Of a DNA stretch of 64,000 nt, positions 44,352 through 51,771 are shown one piece after another. A model generated the notes under the pieces. It worked only from the letters and a program-made list of their open reading frames with translations, did not search any database and was not told the origin of the DNA. The stretch lies in NCBI RefSeq assembly GCF_034119845.1, contig NZ_CP139420.1:3288001-3352000 (forward strand), given 5' to 3'. Each line of letters opens with the position of its first letter. Position 1 is the stretch's first letter. The DNA comes from Flavobacterium sp. NG2 (GTDB lineage Bacteria; Bacteroidota; Bacteroidia; Flavobacteriales; Flavobacteriaceae). Position numbers and translations under genes: made by a program.

Positions 44352-44741
44352 ATACTTTGTCGAGCTACTTGCGGAGATTGCTCCTACGTCGCAAAGACAA
44401 GATTGGGGTTACTGTGACTAAATACTTTGTGAATCTTAGTGTTTCCTTTGCGTGTCTCTGTGAAATAATAAAGTACACATTTGTATCTTCCTTCGTCGCA
44501 AAGTAAAGATTGGTTTTACTGTGCCTTAAAACTTTGTGAATCTTAGTGTTTTCTTAGAGTATCTCTGTGAAATAAAAAAAAACTCATTTAAATCTTTCTT
44601 TACAACAAAGACAAGATTGGGGTCACTGTGACTAAAGACTTTGTGAATCTTAGTGTTTCCTTGGAGTGTCTCTGTGAAATAATAAAATAGCTCATTTGAA
44701 TCTTCCTTCGTCGGAAAGGAAAGATTGGGGTTAGTGTGAGC
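44352..44741 (+). repeat. Family B repeat array, four units in tandem
   Basis: One full unit (44352-44469) is followed by three shortened units starting near 44484, 44591 and 44699, giving a period of about 105-108 bases. All carry the CTTCGTCGCAAAG-like block, and the first three the GTGAATCTTAGTG and CTCTGTGAAATAA blocks. No gene is seen from 44309 to 44884. Confidence 0.85.
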
Positions 44742-44825: not shown

Positions 44826-44833
44826 TATATTTG
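44826..44833 (+). promoter_or_regulatory. Predicted -7 box of the gluconate/uronate operon
   Basis: TATATTTG matches TAnnTTTG, 52 bases before the ATG of the fusion gene. No convincing -33 TTG is present, which would fit a regulated promoter. Confidence 0.5.
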
Positions 44834-44837
44834 GACA

Positions 44838-44861
44838 CCCATACTGGAAAACCAGTTTGGG
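44838..44861. promoter_or_regulatory. Palindromic operator, probable GntR/FadR-type site
   Basis: The core ACTGGAAAACCAGT (44843-44856) is flanked by CCCA on the left and TGGG on the right, making a 24-bp near-perfect palindrome. It begins 5 bases after the -7 box, over or near the expected transcription start, as a repressor site would. FadR/UxuR-type regulators bind similar CTGG/CCAG or TTGG/CCAA palindromes. The operon encodes a FadR-type regulator at 48134, the likely binder. Confidence 0.65.
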
Positions 44862-44884
44862 CAGCCAAAAAATAAACTATAAAA

Positions 44885-46774
44885 ATGAGCGCAACTATTA
44901 TTTATGTTATGGGAGTTTCGGGTGTTGGAAAAAGCACTATTGGAAATAAATTAGCTGAATCCTTAGACATTCCATTTTTTGATGGTGATGATTTTCACCC
45001 TGAAGCTAATGTTTTAAAAATGTCAAGTGGCCAACCTTTAAATGATGATGATAGATTAGGCTGGTTGCAAACACTCAACAAATTAGCAATTAAGCATCTC
45101 GCTGATAAAGGTTGCGTAATTGTTTGCTCGGCTTTAAAAGAGAAATATCGAGAGCTTTTGAGCACCAATATTCAGCAAAATACAAAATGGGTTTTTCTTC
45201 ATGGTTCTTTTGAGCAAATTACCGAAAGGATTAATGGCCGTAAGGGACATTATATGAAGTCCAATTTATTGCAGTCTCAATTTGATATCCTTGAAGAACC
45301 AAAAGAAGCAATTAAAATAGATATAAGTTTAACTCCTGAAACGATTATAGAAGTGATAAAAAAAGAACTACAGCCAAAATCTGAATTTGGTTTATTTGGG
45401 CTTGGCGTTATGGGTAAAAGCCTTAGTAGAAATCTAGCTAACAAGGGATTTAACATCTCTTTATTCAACAGACATGTTGAAGGCTCAGAAGAAAATGTTG
45501 CCGTAAATTTCAAGAACGAGTTTGCAGCATTAGCTTCAGCTAAAGCCTTTGACAATTTAGAAGCTTTTGTAGCTTCGTTGCAAACACCTCGAAAGATCAT
45601 GCTTATGGTCAATGCTGGTAAAACTACAGACTATGTTATCGATGACCTCCTACCGTTCCTCTCTGAAGGTGATATCATCATTGATGGCGGAAATTCAAAT
45701 TACCATGAAACGAAAAGAAGATTTGACGATTTAAAATCAAAAAACATTCATTTTATAGGCGCTGGTGTTTCTGGCGGTGAAGAAGGTGCTTTAACAGGCC
45801 CATCTATAATGCCTGGAGGCGATAAAGAAAGTTACAAAGAAGTCCAACCATTTTTAGAAGCTATAGCGGCAAAAGACCTAAACAACCTAGCTTGCTGTAC
45901 TTATATTGGAACCGAAGGAAGTGGGCATTTTGTCAAAATGGTTCATAATGGGATTGAGTATGTTGAAATGCAATTACTCGCCGAAGTTTACACTATTTTG
46001 CAAGCTCAAGGCAAAAATCCAGACCAAATTGCTACAATTTTAGAATCTTGGAAACCCACTACAAACAGCTACTTACTAGAAATTACTATCGATATTTTAC
46101 GTAAAAAAGAAGGCGATGATTGGTTAGTAAATAAAATAATGGACAAAGCTGGAAATAAAGGTACAGGAAACTGGACCACCATTACCACCGCTGAGTTAGG
46201 AGTACCAAGCACCATGATTGCTTCGGCATTGTTTGCACGTTATACTTCGTTTTATAAGGATGAAAGAACCACAGCAAGTAACAAACTAAGCTCCGATATT
46301 GATACTAGTTTATCTCTTGAAAACGATACTATTTTACAAGCCTACCAATTTGCTAGAATCATCAATCATTACCAAGGTTTTAAATTAATCCATGAAGCTT
46401 CTATCAACTACAAATGGGGTCTGAATTTAAGCGAGTTAGCTAGAATTTGGACCAACGGTTGCATCATCAAATCAGACCTTATGGTAGACTTGGTGACTGT
46501 GTTTAAAAACACTAATAATCTATTAACTGATGATGGTATAACCCAACAATTAAAAGCATTAAAACCAGGCATTAAAAAAGTAGTTTCGGACTGTATTTTA
46601 AACGAAATAGCGATTCCTAATTTATGTGAATCCATAAATTTCATAAACAGTTTTGCCGTAGCCGATTGCTCCGCAAATATAATTCAAGCGCAAAGAGATT
46701 ATTTTGGAGCGCACACCTACCAACGAAAAGATGATGCTACTGAGCAGTTCTATCATACCAATTGGAAAAACTAA
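44885..46774 (+). CDS. Gluconokinase/6-phosphogluconate dehydrogenase fusion
   Basis: A 629-residue fusion. Residues 1 to about 163 are a gluconokinase with Walker A GVSGVGKST (10-18) and the substrate segment FFDGDDFHPEANVLKM. Residues about 165-629 are decarboxylating 6-phosphogluconate dehydrogenase with Rossmann GLGVMG (172-177), VSGGEEGA (S297-G299), the catalytic KMVHNGIEY (K351, H354, N355) and the C-terminal QRDYFGAHTYQR-to-HTNW region. Together these would turn gluconate into ribulose-5-phosphate in two linked steps, giving CO2 and NAD(P)H. All key residues look intact. It leads the operon. Confidence 0.9.
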   Translation: MSATIIYVMGVSGVGKSTIGNKLAESLDIPFFDGDDFHPEANVLKMSSGQPLNDDDRLGWLQTLNKLAIKHLADKGCVIVCSALKEKYRELLSTNIQQNTKWVFLHGSFEQITERINGRKGHYMKSNLLQSQFDILEEPKEAIKIDISLTPETIIEVIKKELQPKSEFGLFGLGVMGKSLSRNLANKGFNISLFNRHVEGSEENVAVNFKNEFAALASAKAFDNLEAFVASLQTPRKIMLMVNAGKTTDYVIDDLLPFLSEGDIIIDGGNSNYHETKRRFDDLKSKNIHFIGAGVSGGEEGALTGPSIMPGGDKESYKEVQPFLEAIAAKDLNNLACCTYIGTEGSGHFVKMVHNGIEYVEMQLLAEVYTILQAQGKNPDQIATILESWKPTTNSYLLEITIDILRKKEGDDWLVNKIMDKAGNKGTGNWTTITTAELGVPSTMIASALFARYTSFYKDERTTASNKLSSDIDTSLSLENDTILQAYQFARIINHYQGFKLIHEASINYKWGLNLSELARIWTNGCIIKSDLMVDLVTVFKNTNNLLTDDGITQQLKALKPGIKKVVSDCILNEIAIPNLCESINFINSFAVADCSANIIQAQRDYFGAHTYQRKDDATEQFYHTNWKN

Positions 46775-46798
46775 CTAACCTAAAAAAACTACTAAATT

Positions 46799-48070
46799 AT
46801 GCCAACATCAGCACATAAAAAATCGTTTCTTAAAAAAATAATCGCCCTTGTTTTAGGCTTCGGGCCAGGTATTTTTGCCATCGGTTATACTATTGGTACA
46901 GGCAGTGTAACTTCTATGATTGTTGCAGGAAGTAAATTTGGAATGCAATTATTGTGGGTGCTTTTGTTAAGTTGTTTGTTTTCGGGAGTATTAATGTTTG
47001 CCTATGGAAATTATGCCTTGATTACTGGTGAAACTGCCCTTTTTGGATTCAAAAAACATTTAAAATTTGGTAAACTTTTAGCCATTTTAATCATTATCGG
47101 AATAACGTTTGGGCAATGGAATTCACTCATGGGTATTTTAGGTATTTCATCCAATATCATTTTTGAAATATTAGCCATAAACTATGAAGGTTTGATTCCG
47201 TATAAGTATGAAACGGTTTTGATTACAGCCATAACTATAATCGTTACTTTTTACTTATTGATGTTGGTTGGAAAGTATTCATTTTTCGAAAAAATCCTTG
47301 TCATTTTTGTAACACTTATGGGCTTATCATTTGTATTGTCATTATGTTTTGTTCAACCACTTTCTATTGATGTGGTCAAAGGATTAATCCCTACCATACC
47401 CGAAGTTCCTGGCGGTAAAATGTTGGTCGCAGCTTTTGTGGGTACCACTATGGCCTCTGCTACCTTCTTATCTCGACCGCTATTTGTAAAAGGGAAAGGT
47501 TGGACGATTAAGGATTTAAAACAACAGAAAAAAGATTCTATTACAGCAGCAATTTTGATTTTCATCATCAGTGCTACGATTATGGCAGTAGCTTGTGGCG
47601 CATTATTTCATGAAGGAAAAGTTGTGACTCAAGTTTTGGACATGGCCAATACTTTGGAACCCGTTGCTGGTAAATGGGCTGTAAGCATCTTCTTTATCGG
47701 AGCCCTAAGTGCTGGCTTATCCTCTATTTTTCCTTGTTTATTAATCGCACCCTTATTAATCGCCGATTATCAATCAGGAACCTTAGATACCAATTCACGA
47801 CAGTTTAGAATCATTACAGCAGTTGCTTCGTTAGTTGCTTTGATAGGACCTATTTTTGGAGCCAATCCTATTGAAATTCAAATTCTATCGCAGGTATTTA
47901 ATGTATTTGTTTTGCCAATTGTTGTCCTCGGAATTATCCTCATGCTCAGTAATAAGAAAATAATGAAAGACTATAAGACTAGTTTAGGAGTTTATATAGG
48001 ACTCTATGCCGCCTTCTTCTTTTCTTTGGTGATTTCATACAACGGTGTATTAGCCCTTTTAGATTATTGA
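46799..48070 (+). CDS. Nramp-fold transporter lacking metal-binding motifs
   Basis: A 423-residue protein with about eleven hydrophobic segments, matching the Nramp family in its first helix (FGPGIFAIGY). The family D-P-G-N motif is replaced by I-G-T-G (about residues 32-35). The helix-6 M-P-H-N motif is replaced by A-S-A-T (about 219-222, in VGTTMASATFLSRP). Residues that bind divalent metal are therefore absent. Its place in a gluconate/uronate operon suggests an organic-acid substrate, which is inferred. The gap from the fusion gene is 24 bases. Confidence 0.75.
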   Translation: MPTSAHKKSFLKKIIALVLGFGPGIFAIGYTIGTGSVTSMIVAGSKFGMQLLWVLLLSCLFSGVLMFAYGNYALITGETALFGFKKHLKFGKLLAILIIIGITFGQWNSLMGILGISSNIIFEILAINYEGLIPYKYETVLITAITIIVTFYLLMLVGKYSFFEKILVIFVTLMGLSFVLSLCFVQPLSIDVVKGLIPTIPEVPGGKMLVAAFVGTTMASATFLSRPLFVKGKGWTIKDLKQQKKDSITAAILIFIISATIMAVACGALFHEGKVVTQVLDMANTLEPVAGKWAVSIFFIGALSAGLSSIFPCLLIAPLLIADYQSGTLDTNSRQFRIITAVASLVALIGPIFGANPIEIQILSQVFNVFVLPIVVLGIILMLSNKKIMKDYKTSLGVYIGLYAAFFFSLVISYNGVLALLDY

Positions 48071-48133
48071 TATTTATTCAAAAATGAATCTAAAAAAGAA
48101 AATTGCGTAACCAATATAAAACAGTCCATCACA

Positions 48134-48835
48134 GTGAAAATAAGTTTGATAGATGAAAATTCAAATCGAATCATGCAGAATGCTATCATCTGCCAAATTC
48201 GAGATTTGATTAATGCTAAAAAATTAGAGCGCGGAGACAAATTGCCTTCAGAGAGAATGATGTCTGAGAAATTTAATGTGAAAAGAAATCATATTAGAGA
48301 AGCTATTCGAAGGTTAGAATTTTATGGAGTGGTCAAATCAATGTCTCAAAGCGGTACTATTCTAGCTATTGGATTAGTTGGGTTTAACGGTATCGTTGAG
48401 GAAATAATCGCACTAGATGCTCCTTCTTTTAATGAACTGGTAGAAACTAGAATATCCTTAGAGCTAGAAACGGTTTGGTTAGCATCTCAAAGACGAACAG
48501 AGGCTGATTTAAAACGCATAGAAGACGCATTAAACGCTTTTAAAACTAAAATTATAGCTGGTGATGATTATTTAGAGGAAGATTTACTATTTCATTTAGC
48601 AATCGCAAAAGCCAGTAAAAACAGTACTATGGTTTCCTTAATGCTTTTATTAATACCACCAATTCTTAAAACCTATGAGCGAGATACGGTTTGTGAAGGC
48701 GACCAAGTAGATTCTGAAATTAAAAAACATGAAGCTATTTTTTTAGCGATAGAATCAAATGACCCCGAACTTGCAACAAAAATGATGAACGAACATTTTA
48801 CAAAATTATCAAACCATATAAAAAACAGCCATTAA
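48134..48835 (+). CDS. GntR-family regulator, FadR subfamily with FCD domain
   Basis: A 233-residue regulator. The winged helix (residues about 15-80) has KLPSERMMSEKFNVKRNHIREAIRRLE. The FCD domain (about 90-225) has the metal-binding-type histidines in FHLAIAKAS and later HEAIF and NEHF. The start is a GTG at 48134; an in-frame ATG at residue 14 would truncate the domain. FadR-type members often sense sugar acids. It lies inside the operon, and the palindrome at 44838 is its likely operator. Confidence 0.88.
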   Translation: MKISLIDENSNRIMQNAIICQIRDLINAKKLERGDKLPSERMMSEKFNVKRNHIREAIRRLEFYGVVKSMSQSGTILAIGLVGFNGIVEEIIALDAPSFNELVETRISLELETVWLASQRRTEADLKRIEDALNAFKTKIIAGDDYLEEDLLFHLAIAKASKNSTMVSLMLLLIPPILKTYERDTVCEGDQVDSEIKKHEAIFLAIESNDPELATKMMNEHFTKLSNHIKNSH

Positions 48836-48836
48836 A

Positions 48837-49967
48837 ATGAAAAGACCAACAAAAACTAGCAATCAAAAAATGATTACATCCGTATCCAAATTACTAATTT
48901 TAAGCACCTTGTTAATCCTAGGCAGCTGTAAAGACAAAAAAAATGAGACTGCAACTGATGCTACTGCTACAGAAGCTGAAAAAACAGTTCACCCTAGTGA
49001 AGTTATTCCCTTCTTCGATCATTGGAAATTGATTTTGGGTGATGGTACAAACGCAGGTATTGCCAATAATTTCACCAATAAAGATTACTTTTTTACCATA
49101 AATGAAAATGGAACCAATTGGGTTGTTTTCAAAACTCCAAATGCGGGTCAAACTCACGGAACCTCAAACAATACCAGAACCGAATTGGCCCAAATAAAAA
49201 AATGGTATCCCAAAACAGCCGATGATAAATTGACGGCTACCTTAAAAGTAATGAACGTTTCTTCTACGGGTGATGCTCGTGTAGCAGCTTCGCATGCGGT
49301 AGTTGTAGGTCAAATTCATAGTGCTGATGCCTTTGAAAACGAACCTCTAAAAATCTTCTACAAAAAATTTCCTGGTCATACAAAAGGTTCAGTGTTTTGG
49401 CATTATGAAATCAATACCGCTGGTGATGATAATGGGAAACGTTGGGATTTTTCTACAGCTGTTTGGGGAAATGACTTTTCGGTTGTTGGTCCTACAGCAA
49501 ATAGCTATCCTGCAGAACCTAAAGATGGTATCGCATTAGGCGAAGAGTTTAGCTATAGTGTCGAGGTTAAAGATGGTATTATGAAATTGACTTTTACAAG
49601 TGAAGGACATGAAACCAAAACATTTACAAAAAACTTACTCGTGTCAGATTATGCCACGACAGATAAAATCCCTATGCAAATACAAAAAATGTATTTCCCA
49701 CTTGGTCAAAACGGAGTGGAACGTAAAAATGCCTACACTGACGAAGGTCTTTTCTTTAAACTTGGGGCATACAATCAAACCAATGGAAAATCTCCTGAAA
49801 TCAATAAAAACTGGTGTTCTGGTGCCGAAACTCATGGTGGAGATGTTCAAAAACAGTACAAAGATGGGAATTATGCTGAAGTTTGGTTTAAAACTGCCTC
49901 TATCTCGGTAAGTGATAAAGCGGTTTCAAATGAAGGCTATTTCAATAAAAATGATCATAAAAAATAA
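48837..49967 (+). CDS. PL7-type polysaccharide lyase lipoprotein (alginate lyase-like)
   Basis: A 376-residue protein with a lipoprotein signal ending LILGSC (C31) and an acidic, threonine-rich linker to about residue 50. The mature part carries the three PL7 lyase motifs in order: RTEL (114-117), QIH (159-161) and FFKLGAYNQ (306-314, catalytic-type Y312). PL7 enzymes cleave alginate by beta-elimination; the exact uronate preference is not set by these motifs. It starts one base after the regulator's stop. Confidence 0.85.
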   Translation: MKRPTKTSNQKMITSVSKLLILSTLLILGSCKDKKNETATDATATEAEKTVHPSEVIPFFDHWKLILGDGTNAGIANNFTNKDYFFTINENGTNWVVFKTPNAGQTHGTSNNTRTELAQIKKWYPKTADDKLTATLKVMNVSSTGDARVAASHAVVVGQIHSADAFENEPLKIFYKKFPGHTKGSVFWHYEINTAGDDNGKRWDFSTAVWGNDFSVVGPTANSYPAEPKDGIALGEEFSYSVEVKDGIMKLTFTSEGHETKTFTKNLLVSDYATTDKIPMQIQKMYFPLGQNGVERKNAYTDEGLFFKLGAYNQTNGKSPEINKNWCSGAETHGGDVQKQYKDGNYAEVWFKTASISVSDKAVSNEGYFNKNDHKK

Positions 49968-49978
49968 TATACAAGAAA

Positions 49979-50746
49979 ATGGAAAATAATAAATTAACAA
50001 ATAAGAACGTCTTAATTACTGCTGGAGCTCAAGGAATTGGAGAATCAATCTCTAAGCACTTTATTGATAGTGGAGCGAATGTTGCTATTCACTATTTTTC
50101 AAGTGCTGATACTGCCAAAGAATTGGTAAAATACGCTAACAGCAAAGGACAAAAAGCAATGGCAATAAGTGGTGACCTAACTAATGAAGCTGATGTTACT
50201 GCAATGGTTGAGAAAACAGTTGCCGAACTTGGTAGTCTGGACATACTAATAAACAACGCTGGTTCTCTAGTGGCACGTAAAATGTTAAGCGAAATGGAAA
50301 CAGAATTCTGGCATAAGGTTATGGACATCAACCTTACGTCTATGATGTTTGTGACTCGTGCTGCAGCTCCATATTTGGCAAAAAATGAGAACAGTAGTAT
50401 TGTTAACTTAGCATCACTCGCTGGACGTAAAGGTGGTCATCCAGGGTCACTTGCTTATTCTACTAGCAAAGGGGCTATCTTAACTTTTACTAGAGCACTT
50501 TCGGCAGAATTAGGACCTCAAGGTACTCGAGTAAATGCTGTTGCTCCAGGACTTATTCTTGGTACTTCGTTTCACAATACGCATACAACAAAAGAATCTG
50601 CGGATGCAACAACAGCGAGCATTCCAATTCAAAGAGCAGGTAACGCAGCTGATGTAGCTCGTGCCGTTTTATATCTAGCGTCAGAATACGACGGTTTTAT
50701 TACAGGTGCTACTCTCGACATTAATGGCGGAGTATACAATATGTAA
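49979..50746 (+). CDS. SDR-family dehydrogenase, probable uronate/gluconate oxidoreductase
   Basis: A 255-residue classical short-chain dehydrogenase. The coenzyme motif is TAGAQGIG (15-21, with Ala in place of the first Gly), NNAG is at 92-95, and the catalytic residues are S146, Y160 and K164 (YSTSK). Within this operon it could reduce the lyase-derived keto-uronate (a DehR-like role) or act as a gluconate 5-dehydrogenase. Context does not settle which. It is the last gene and is followed by a terminator. Confidence 0.82.
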   Translation: MENNKLTNKNVLITAGAQGIGESISKHFIDSGANVAIHYFSSADTAKELVKYANSKGQKAMAISGDLTNEADVTAMVEKTVAELGSLDILINNAGSLVARKMLSEMETEFWHKVMDINLTSMMFVTRAAAPYLAKNENSSIVNLASLAGRKGGHPGSLAYSTSKGAILTFTRALSAELGPQGTRVNAVAPGLILGTSFHNTHTTKESADATTASIPIQRAGNAADVARAVLYLASEYDGFITGATLDINGGVYNM

Positions 50747-50809
50747 TTAATTAACTGGCGCTAGTCTTTTTTACACTATCTATTGTTTGGTTAAAGCGTG
50801 GATACCCAA

Positions 50810-50848
50810 AACAGAAGTGACTTTAAATAGTTGCTTCTGTTTTTTTTT
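50810..50848 (+). terminator. Terminator of the gluconate/uronate operon
   Basis: AACAGAAG (50810-50817) pairs with CTTCTGTT (50834-50841) around a 16-base loop, followed by eight T. The sequence resembles a hairpin within the 42404-42630 element. Confidence 0.75.
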
Positions 50849-50926: not shown

Positions 50927-50934
50927 TACCTTTG
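50927..50934 (+). promoter_or_regulatory. Predicted -7 box of murQ
   Basis: TACCTTTG matches TAnnTTTG. The in-frame TTG at 50932 lies within it, so the start codon is more likely the ATG at 50962. Confidence 0.5.
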
Positions 50935-50961
50935 AGTTTTTGTAATTTAGAACCTCAAAAA

Positions 50962-51771
50962 ATGACTTTTACTAAAACTACAGAGCAATCCTCAAAATAC
51001 GAGCATTTAGAAAAAATGTCTGTCAGCGAACTTTTGACTAACATCAACCGAGAAGACCAAACCGTGCCTCTTGCTGTCGAAAAAGTACTTCCTGAAATTG
51101 AAGCTTTGGTCACACAAATTGTAGCCAAAATGAAAAAAGGCGGTCGTTTGTTTTATATTGGCGCTGGAACTTCGGGACGTTTAGGCGTTGTGGATGCTTC
51201 GGAATGTCCTCCTACTTTTGGAGTGCCTTTTGATATGGTGGTTGGAATTATAGCTGGCGGTGACACTGCCATTCGTAGAGCTGTAGAAAATGCCGAAGAC
51301 GATGCTACTCAAGCTTGGATTGATTTGCAAGAATTCAATATCAATGCTGACGATGTCGTAATTGGAATTGCAGCTTCGGGAACAACACCTTATGTGATTG
51401 GTGGATTACAAATGTGTAATGACAGCGGTATTATCACGGGTAGTATTTGTTGTAATGCTGGAAGCCCTATTTCGAAAACAGCACAATATCCTATTGATGT
51501 GGTGGTAGGTCCTGAGTTTGTAACAGGAAGTTCTAGAATGAAAGCAGGAACAGCACAGAAGTTAGTTTTAAACATGATTTCGACCGCTACCATGATTCAG
51601 CTAGGAAAAGTAAAAGGAAACAAAATGGTCGATATGCAATTAAGCAATAGCAAATTAGTCGATCGCGGTGTCAAAATGATAATGGGAGAAATTCCTGTAA
51701 GCTATGACGAAGCATCCGAATTATTACGTAAATTTGGCAGCGTTCGTAAAGCCGTTGACAACTGGAAATAA
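50962..51771 (+). CDS. murQ: N-acetylmuramic acid 6-phosphate etherase
   Basis: A 269-residue SIS-domain enzyme that cleaves the lactyl ether of MurNAc-6-phosphate during cell wall recycling. It has YIGAGTSGRLGVVDASECPPTFG (near residue 67) and GIAASGTTPYVIGGL. The ATG at 50962 gives the common MTFTKTTE start. The C-terminal helical part after about residue 235 is somewhat shorter than in some homologs of about 300 residues. The gene stands alone here, not in a MurNAc operon. Confidence 0.92.
   Translation: MTFTKTTEQSSKYEHLEKMSVSELLTNINREDQTVPLAVEKVLPEIEALVTQIVAKMKKGGRLFYIGAGTSGRLGVVDASECPPTFGVPFDMVVGIIAGGDTAIRRAVENAEDDATQAWIDLQEFNINADDVVIGIAASGTTPYVIGGLQMCNDSGIITGSICCNAGSPISKTAQYPIDVVVGPEFVTGSSRMKAGTAQKLVLNMISTATMIQLGKVKGNKMVDMQLSNSKLVDRGVKMIMGEIPVSYDEASELLRKFGSVRKAVDNWK

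Follow-up and report, generated by a model that had tools for sequence, protein, structure and literature searches.

Why should a 6-phosphogluconate dehydrogenase be encoded beside an alginate lyase, behind an operator of the alginate type? The question is raised by five genes of Flavobacterium sp. NG2 (assembly GCF_034119845.1, contig NZ_CP139420.1, positions 3,288,001 to 3,352,000 of the forward strand). We call this whole stretch of 64,000 nt the window, and coordinates below are window positions, position 1 being its first letter. An earlier note, made from the letters alone, had read the five genes as a co-regulated unit feeding a polyuronate into the pentose phosphate pathway, and this part of its interpretation stood. 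The link of the operon to alginate is firm. On balance, we lean toward seeing it as a satellite operon of that regulon for saturated guluronate units, which would be reduced to D-gluconate and oxidized to ribulose 5-phosphate. The features concerned are the following.

44826-44833, + strand: TATATTTG, a TAnnTTTG-type -7 promoter box, overlapped by the first operator copy
44832-44867, + strand: tandem operator, TGGN4CCA three times with a period of 13 nt (tandem-site search, relatives)
44885-46774, + strand: GntK/Gnd fusion of gluconokinase and NADP 6-phosphogluconate dehydrogenase (6PGDH), 629 aa (NCBIfam cut-offs, motifs)
46799-48070, + strand: membrane protein of the Nramp fold that lacks the metal-site motifs, 423 aa, proposed importer of uronate or aldonate (PF01566)
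48134-48835, + strand: GntR-family FCD regulator, proposed to be AusR-like, 233 aa, GTG start (Pfam/NCBIfam)
48837-49967, + strand: AlyA5-like PL7 alginate lyase and lipoprotein, related to an exo-type enzyme, 376 aa (PF08787, 4BE3 match, motifs)
49979-50746, + strand: short-chain dehydrogenase/reductase (SDR), 255 aa, proposed reductase of L-guluronate at C1, perhaps with NADPH as cofactor (Pfam/NCBIfam, motifs)
50808-50843, + strand: terminator-like hairpin of 15 pairs with a T-tract

Operator and alginate regulon

The coordinates of the open reading frames (ORFs) gave same-strand gaps of exactly 24, 63, 1 and 11 nt, as the earlier note had counted them, and its gene families (fusion, Nramp, GntR with FCD, PL7 and SDR) were borne out by Pfam and NCBIfam. 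The operator-like palindrome that it placed in front of the operon is an element present there, better described as three tandem sites. A tandem of two such sites averaged 0.0 per 64 kb when the window was resampled 20 times from a first-order Markov model. It was found in 76 of 80 named loci of relatives (246 occurrences; absent from L104, L120, L146 and L147), these being the best 80 of 269 relatives, a choice that favors close kin; in each of five Markov resamplings, no locus had it. The operator precedes the fusion gene in 12/12 loci having an FCD gene (at least 60%) versus 2/57 without one, where the fusion is mostly internal to a larger unit. In the window and in all 12 FCD-carrying relatives, a TAnnTTTGG box overlaps the operator at the same relative place; TAnnTTTG is the -7 promoter consensus of Bacteroidetes. 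A simple promoter scan, unsuited to Bacteroidetes, gave no signal (24 sites versus 22.8 in shuffles). As announced, a terminator-like hairpin stands behind the operon; terminator-like sites as a class were no commoner than in shuffles (4 versus a mean of 4.4), and the operon's hairpin is the longest of them.

The genome's own canonical alginate locus, L166, bears the strict operator tandem twice, at 2966 and 14671. Three further places there, each inside or bordering a gap between ORFs, have a single site together with a half site. The FCD regulators of the window and of L166 are 50% identical. As for the GTG start of the former, its ortholog at L212 opens with the same residues. In Zobellia, AusR binds its operator as single, double or triple copies (PMC7874173). 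Since the tandem operator and the FCD regulator are common to the operon and L166, and given the precedent of AusR operator copies, we assign the operon to the alginate regulon, on a comparison of these two loci with each other. The operator shared with a canonical alginate locus, together with a lyase closest to AlyA5, also identifies the polymer as alginate, which would be the inducer of the operon.

ORF and Pfam checks revealed no KdgK, KdgA or SusC/SusD within the five-gene unit. The earlier note had opposed the unit to flavobacterial loci that use KDG (2-keto-3-deoxygluconate) kinase and aldolase and SusC/SusD instead. This opposition failed, as the same genome holds that whole system at L166, and 46/80 loci combine PL17, KdgF and a SusC-type gene in a polysaccharide utilization locus (PUL). 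We thus rejected the operon as a replacement of the KDG system.

Conservation and the gluconate connection

A set confined to one strain was rejected: close relatives (at least 59%) of the Nramp-like protein occurred in 32 of the 249 Flavobacteriaceae genomes sampled, besides the 80 loci. The conserved linkage within Flavobacteriia that the earlier note had named as a check was found, since in 69/80 loci the Nramp-like gene directly follows the fusion or a half of it, at a distance of 10-123 nt by match ends. The match to the fusion is full-length in 62 of these and partial in 7, of which two (L114 and L154) are kinase-sized. The SDR was present at 75% or more in 62/80 loci (61 over 200 residues), and a PL6, PL17 or PL7 gene (at least 50% identity) in 72/80. 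KdgK (at least 40%) was seen in 9/80 and KdgA in none. All five genes were together in 11/80, with SDR and PL7 swapped in order in L152 and L162. We regard the anatomy and conservation of the operon as firm. One genome with an SDR-less locus, G002, was tested and proved to carry the SDR on another contig, with FCD and PL7 genes. Because the set is there split into two units, that is, fusion and Nramp-like gene within a PUL (L035) and FCD, PL7 and SDR genes in an operon that has an operator to itself (L212), the arrangement in the window looks like a joining of two modules. Incidentally, the full set also occurs outside Flavobacteriaceae, at L162 of Marinilabiliaceae bacterium N1Y90 (64-86% identity), which suggests horizontal transfer.

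A second locus type comprises most of L049-L063. In these, the Nramp-like gene comes last in an operon with an FCD regulator, a major facilitator superfamily (MFS) transporter, an SDR and KdgK, often also with phosphofructokinase (PFK)-like and KdgA genes, and neither the fusion nor a half of it is nearby, except at L063. The PFK-family gene of these KdgK/KdgA-type alginate operons (L049, 7138-8349, clustered with genes of L050-L054, L057 and L061) had pyrophosphate-dependent PFK as its best NCBIfam model, at 333 bits, below the cut-off of 550.

The kinase half of the fusion scored 169.7 bits with TIGR01313 (cut-off 113.75) and the dehydrogenase half 525.8 bits with TIGR00873 (cut-off 426.7); scores with the stricter GntK and IdnK equivalog models were below cut-off. 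The protein carries a kinase P-loop and the 6PGDH segment KMVHNGIEY; in these, as in the PL7 and YxxxK motifs cited below, the residues are presumably the catalytic ones. It is the sole PF00393 match in the NG2 genome. We counted dehydrogenases in 14 genomes, hand-picked from earlier matches, that carry the Nramp-like gene. Glucose-6-phosphate dehydrogenase (G6PDH) was found in 0/14, and exactly one 6PGDH in 14/14, adjoining the Nramp-like gene in 11. With no G6PDH, 6-phosphogluconate in NG2 is therefore expected to come from gluconate and not from glucose 6-phosphate. The NG2 genome has no GntP permease either, so gluconate must be made inside the cell or imported by another carrier. Twenty loci were examined in which fusion homologues lie away from any close Nramp-like gene: a GntP-family permease gene cluster was represented in 15 of them and an SMP-30/gluconolactonase-type cluster in 8 (Pfam checks covered two representatives of the former and one of the latter), while L200 has a PL7 gene in their stead. 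The case for gluconate as the substrate of the fusion is strong.

In some relatives (among L043, L063, L144, L148 and L163, and L047, L114 and L154), the fusion is split into separate gntK and gnd genes, and others of that set keep the kinase alone near the Nramp-like gene. The latter loci raise the idea that the kinase may be the locus-specific step.

Proposed route and its rivals

The route that we favor would run as follows. An alginate-derived effector would lift the AusR-like FCD repressor off the triple operator, and the AlyA5-like lyase would trim oligo-alginate outside the cytoplasm and, in addition, liberate saturated uronate at non-reducing ends. This free uronate (or aldonate) would cross the inner membrane by way of the Nramp-fold protein, and the SDR would reduce L-guluronate at C1 to D-gluconate at the expense of NADPH. 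The fusion would then phosphorylate gluconate and oxidatively decarboxylate 6-phosphogluconate to ribulose 5-phosphate and CO2, giving the NADPH back. The net reaction, L-guluronate + ATP to ribulose 5-phosphate + CO2 + ADP, would be redox-neutral. D-mannuronate would yield D-mannonate with the same reductase, which a mannonate dehydratase could then use (NG2 has two UxuA-family genes, and the loci of a few relatives hold ManD). The chemistry closes provided that the SDR is a guluronate reductase and so supplies D-gluconate to the fusion. Turning the Fischer projections showed that C1 reduction converts L-guluronate to D-gluconate and D-mannuronate to D-mannonate, whereas other acids result from glucuronate, galacturonate and iduronate; among these five uronates only L-guluronate leads to gluconate. 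The SDR is the obvious candidate for this conversion, with which the stereochemistry is consistent, and probably performs it.

The closest solved chain to the lyase was 4BE3 (E 8.1e-130), that is, Zobellia AlyA5, exolytic from the non-reducing end (PMC8073546) and listed as exo-type with the preference polyG > polyMG > polyM (PMC7268478). The lyase has the PL7 motifs RTEL, QIH and FKLGAYNQ and the lipobox LILGSC, and a Trp, possibly equivalent to AlyA5 Trp313, aligns in a loop stretch with 4BE3. By analogy, it would be exo-acting. An exo-type relative, VxAly7D, yielded some saturated monosaccharide (PMC7268478), and exo-lyases are said to release saturated mannuronate and guluronate as well (PMC5809466).

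The carrier is the step with the best-surviving rival. The protein has the LeuT-type Nramp fold (PF01566, structure comparison) and passes NF037982 (88.5 bits, cut-off 50); the VIA-align part of the structure comparison re-examined Foldseek matches, among which sugar transporters of other folds could not appear. As the earlier note had observed, it lacks the metal-site motifs: DPG in the first 60 residues and MPH anywhere were each found in 0/42 aligned family members, versus both in the genome's own MntH. Its gene sits where fusion homologues mostly have GntP. Weaker matches, at 35-46%, came to 24 among those listed, and nine loci were examined. We noticed in L064-L072, of Flavobacteriaceae, a second motif-less clade, about 39% identical, whose genes have NagA-like and NagB-like neighbors and often also a pair of Gfo/Idh/MocA oxidoreductase genes close by; judging from this company, this is probably an amino-sugar operon with an Nramp-fold carrier. 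We know of no precedent for an Nramp fold carrying organic substrates, and we would call sugar-acid import by the window protein about as likely as not.

A possibility was that the protein is instead a cation transporter for metal ions bound to or released from alginate and takes no part in sugar uptake, all else being as above. The fold itself speaks for this, as does the nearest solved chain by E-value, EleNRMT, which reportedly carries magnesium. The missing DPGN and MPH motifs in 42/42 members, the 39% clade in NagA/NagB-like operons and the GntP place beside fusion homologues speak against it. In the Alteromonas alginolytic systems, the Nramp product is labeled a metal-ion transporter (PMC6431674), which is again in its favor. 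We consider this rival unlikely, though the most serious of those weighed here.

The next rival concerns the SDR, which carries NNAG and YSTSK (YxxxK) motifs. It may be a second, NADPH-dependent reductase of DEH (4-deoxy-L-erythro-5-hexoseulose uronate), giving KDG for the KdgK and KdgA encoded elsewhere in the genome, in which case the fusion would burn gluconate from other sources, mainly for NADPH. The SDR family and alginate context fit, and Sphingomonas A1 holds two such enzymes of differing cofactor use, A1-R, an NADPH-dependent SDR, and A1-R' (PMC4306948). The DEH reductase FlRed of Flavobacterium UMI-01 is NADH-specific, acidic residues at the cofactor site being tied to NADH use, and lies between a sugar permease and KDG kinase (PMC4306948), a place also occupied by the SDR of L166. 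The latter is 82% identical to other KdgK/KdgA-locus SDRs, and the window SDR as the only alginate-locus SDR of the genome was accordingly rejected. We named the FlRed-type clade from operon position, this 82% within-clade identity and the residues in PMC4306948, not from the FlRed sequence. The window SDR falls outside it: it is only 37% identical to the L166 member, and Ser41-Ser42 replace the two acidic residues. Because these serines stand for a pair tied to NADH use, NADPH is a plausible cofactor, and would be regenerated by the 6PGDH half; the same serines suit an NADPH-dependent DEH reductase. Both SDR types coexist in one locus at L131, L132, L136 and L149. The DEH-reductase rival leaves the source of gluconate unexplained in a genome without GntP and G6PDH, and also the travelling of gluconokinase and 6PGDH with alginate genes. 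Like the glucose rival below, it avoids the problem of guluronate supply, and like it, leaves ManD in three loci unaccounted for. We rate it as rather improbable.

ManD, the expected enzyme for the mannuronate half of the favored route, lies in the same unit at L044 (an equivalog, 669 bits, cut-off 550) and at L110 and L140, both Mariniflexile (proteins 87% identical). It reached cut-off in 1 of the 14 genomes, and UxuA-family genes were present in 9. As a side observation, several alginate loci (L033, L034, L042, L046, L048, L086, L087, L109, L114 and L124) encode at their PL6 end a TIM-barrel protein of about 314 aa that resembles xylose isomerase (PF01261). It had no NCBIfam match at 1e-10 and is possibly a sugar isomerase or epimerase.

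The SDR co-occurs with the Nramp-like gene, being found in 18/21 genomes with it (G125 by a partial match) versus 0/18 with the fusion only (Fisher p 2e-8); the 39 genomes were hand-picked and the groups differ in kinship and lifestyle, so the figure speaks of association only. In G184, G236 and G070, for example, unrelated genes surround the SDR gene, and it has no operator. The absence from 18/18 fusion genomes lacking the Nramp-like gene counts against two further rivals. In one, which we hold to be remote, the cells scavenge environmental gluconate in co-regulation with alginate use, the Nramp-like protein being a gluconate permease, as its GntP slot would allow, and the SDR acting on keto-gluconate; the SDR matches the gluconate 5-dehydrogenase subfamily, though below cut-off (185.4 versus 279 bits). 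Against this rival, the Nramp-like gene occurs also in fusion-less alginate loci. In the other, of very low probability, the SDR is a glucose 1-dehydrogenase that turns glucose into gluconate, by-passing the missing G6PDH and yielding NADPH. The SDR scores just above the cut-off for that enzyme (216.9 versus 215), but it passes the FabG-type model too (229.6 versus 222), and both models are broad; the alginate operator, the lyase, the PUL context and the lack of a gluconolactonase gene in the operon also disagree. Weakest of all is a route from mannuronate through D-mannonate, in which an epimerization, preceding or following the phosphorylation, would lead to 6-phosphogluconate. Entry of this kind has been proposed for Thermotoga and shown in Lactobacillus suebicus extracts, a precedent for redox-neutral passage from uronate to ribulose 5-phosphate (PMC6978723), but no epimerase was recognized in the operon, guluronate needs none, and mannonate dehydratases exist in the NG2 genome.

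Several observations weigh against the guluronate route itself. The supply of guluronate from lyases alone would be small because their mechanism leaves only the original non-reducing end saturated; this is its weak point, and guluronate should be a minor product, except with short chains or where saturated ends become accessible in some other way. Since the FabG and glucose 1-dehydrogenase models are broad, NCBIfam does not fix the substrate of the SDR, which could be an NADPH-type DEH reductase. The Nramp-like gene is also found in alginate loci with KdgK, KdgA and MFS genes and no fusion, which leaves room for a substrate other than guluronate or gluconate. In 15 of the 69 loci that carry the fusion or a half, the stretch examined (up to 10 kb each side, some ended by contig ends) contains no SDR reaching 75%, 8/80 have the SDR without the fusion, and at L200 the fusion adjoins a PL7 gene with no Nramp-like gene. 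ManD is scarce, being in 2/80 named loci, both Mariniflexile. Lastly, we found neither activity nor transcript data on any gene of the operon.

As to the surroundings of the operon, a 107-nt repeat in three tandem copies, 75-79% alike, lies just 5' of it (44400-44720), with a ParE-type toxin-like ORF (PF05016, 43994-44308) further upstream. Directly 3' of the hairpin, on the same strand, is a gene for a MurQ-type N-acetylmuramic acid 6-phosphate etherase (50932-51771).

Significance and comparison with known systems

More broadly, and tentatively, with somewhat less confidence than for the satellite operon, we propose a second arm of alginate use, in which guluronate is imported by an Nramp-fold protein and reduced by an NADPH-dependent SDR to D-gluconate for a fusion that is the only 6PGDH of cells without G6PDH, ManD or UxuA adding mannuronate. 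If true, such an arm would account for the fate of saturated alginate units, for the filling of pentose pools on seaweed in marine bacteria without G6PDH, and for a 6PGDH beside an alginate operator; the Nramp fold would then serve for organic substrates, namely uronates and, in the sister clade, amino sugars. A redox-neutral uronate route would be of use for seaweed bioconversion. In the literature examined, described alginate catabolism runs wholly through DEH and KDG. No report of a guluronate-gluconate pathway was found in the literature searched, most subscription papers lying outside that search, and a term search of the available text of a Zobellia transcriptome study (PMC5613140) returned no mention of Nramp, gluconokinase or 6-phosphogluconate.

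Among known systems, Lactobacillus suebicus converts galacturonate to ribulose 5-phosphate (PMC6978723) and shares with the proposed route the entry of uronate as 6-phosphogluconate, the NADP 6PGDH and redox neutrality; the window operon differs in the direct C1 reduction of guluronate proposed for it. In the systems AS1 and AS2 of Alteromonas sp. 76-1, too, alginate loci include FabG-like SDR genes and one for an Nramp protein, but the Nramp product is called a metal-ion transporter and no gluconokinase was seen in the part of the description available. Compared with Nramp/SLC11 metal transporters, the window protein lacks both metal-site motifs and has sugar-catabolic gene neighbors. The gluconate operon of other Flavobacteriaceae (GntK-Gnd with GntP, sometimes with a gluconolactonase-type gene) has the same fusion family, 42-60% identical in 19/20 loci and 75% in L200; the window operon has the Nramp-like gene for GntP, plus the alginate operator, lyase and SDR. 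Finally, with the flavobacterial alginate system (the Zobellia AusR regulon and the Flavobacterium UMI-01 cluster) it shares the GntR/FCD repressor, tandem operators, a PL7 lyase and an SDR, the latter being distant from that of the canonical set at L166. It differs from that system in having no KdgK, KdgA, MFS or SusC/SusD, and in adding the fusion and the Nramp-like protein.

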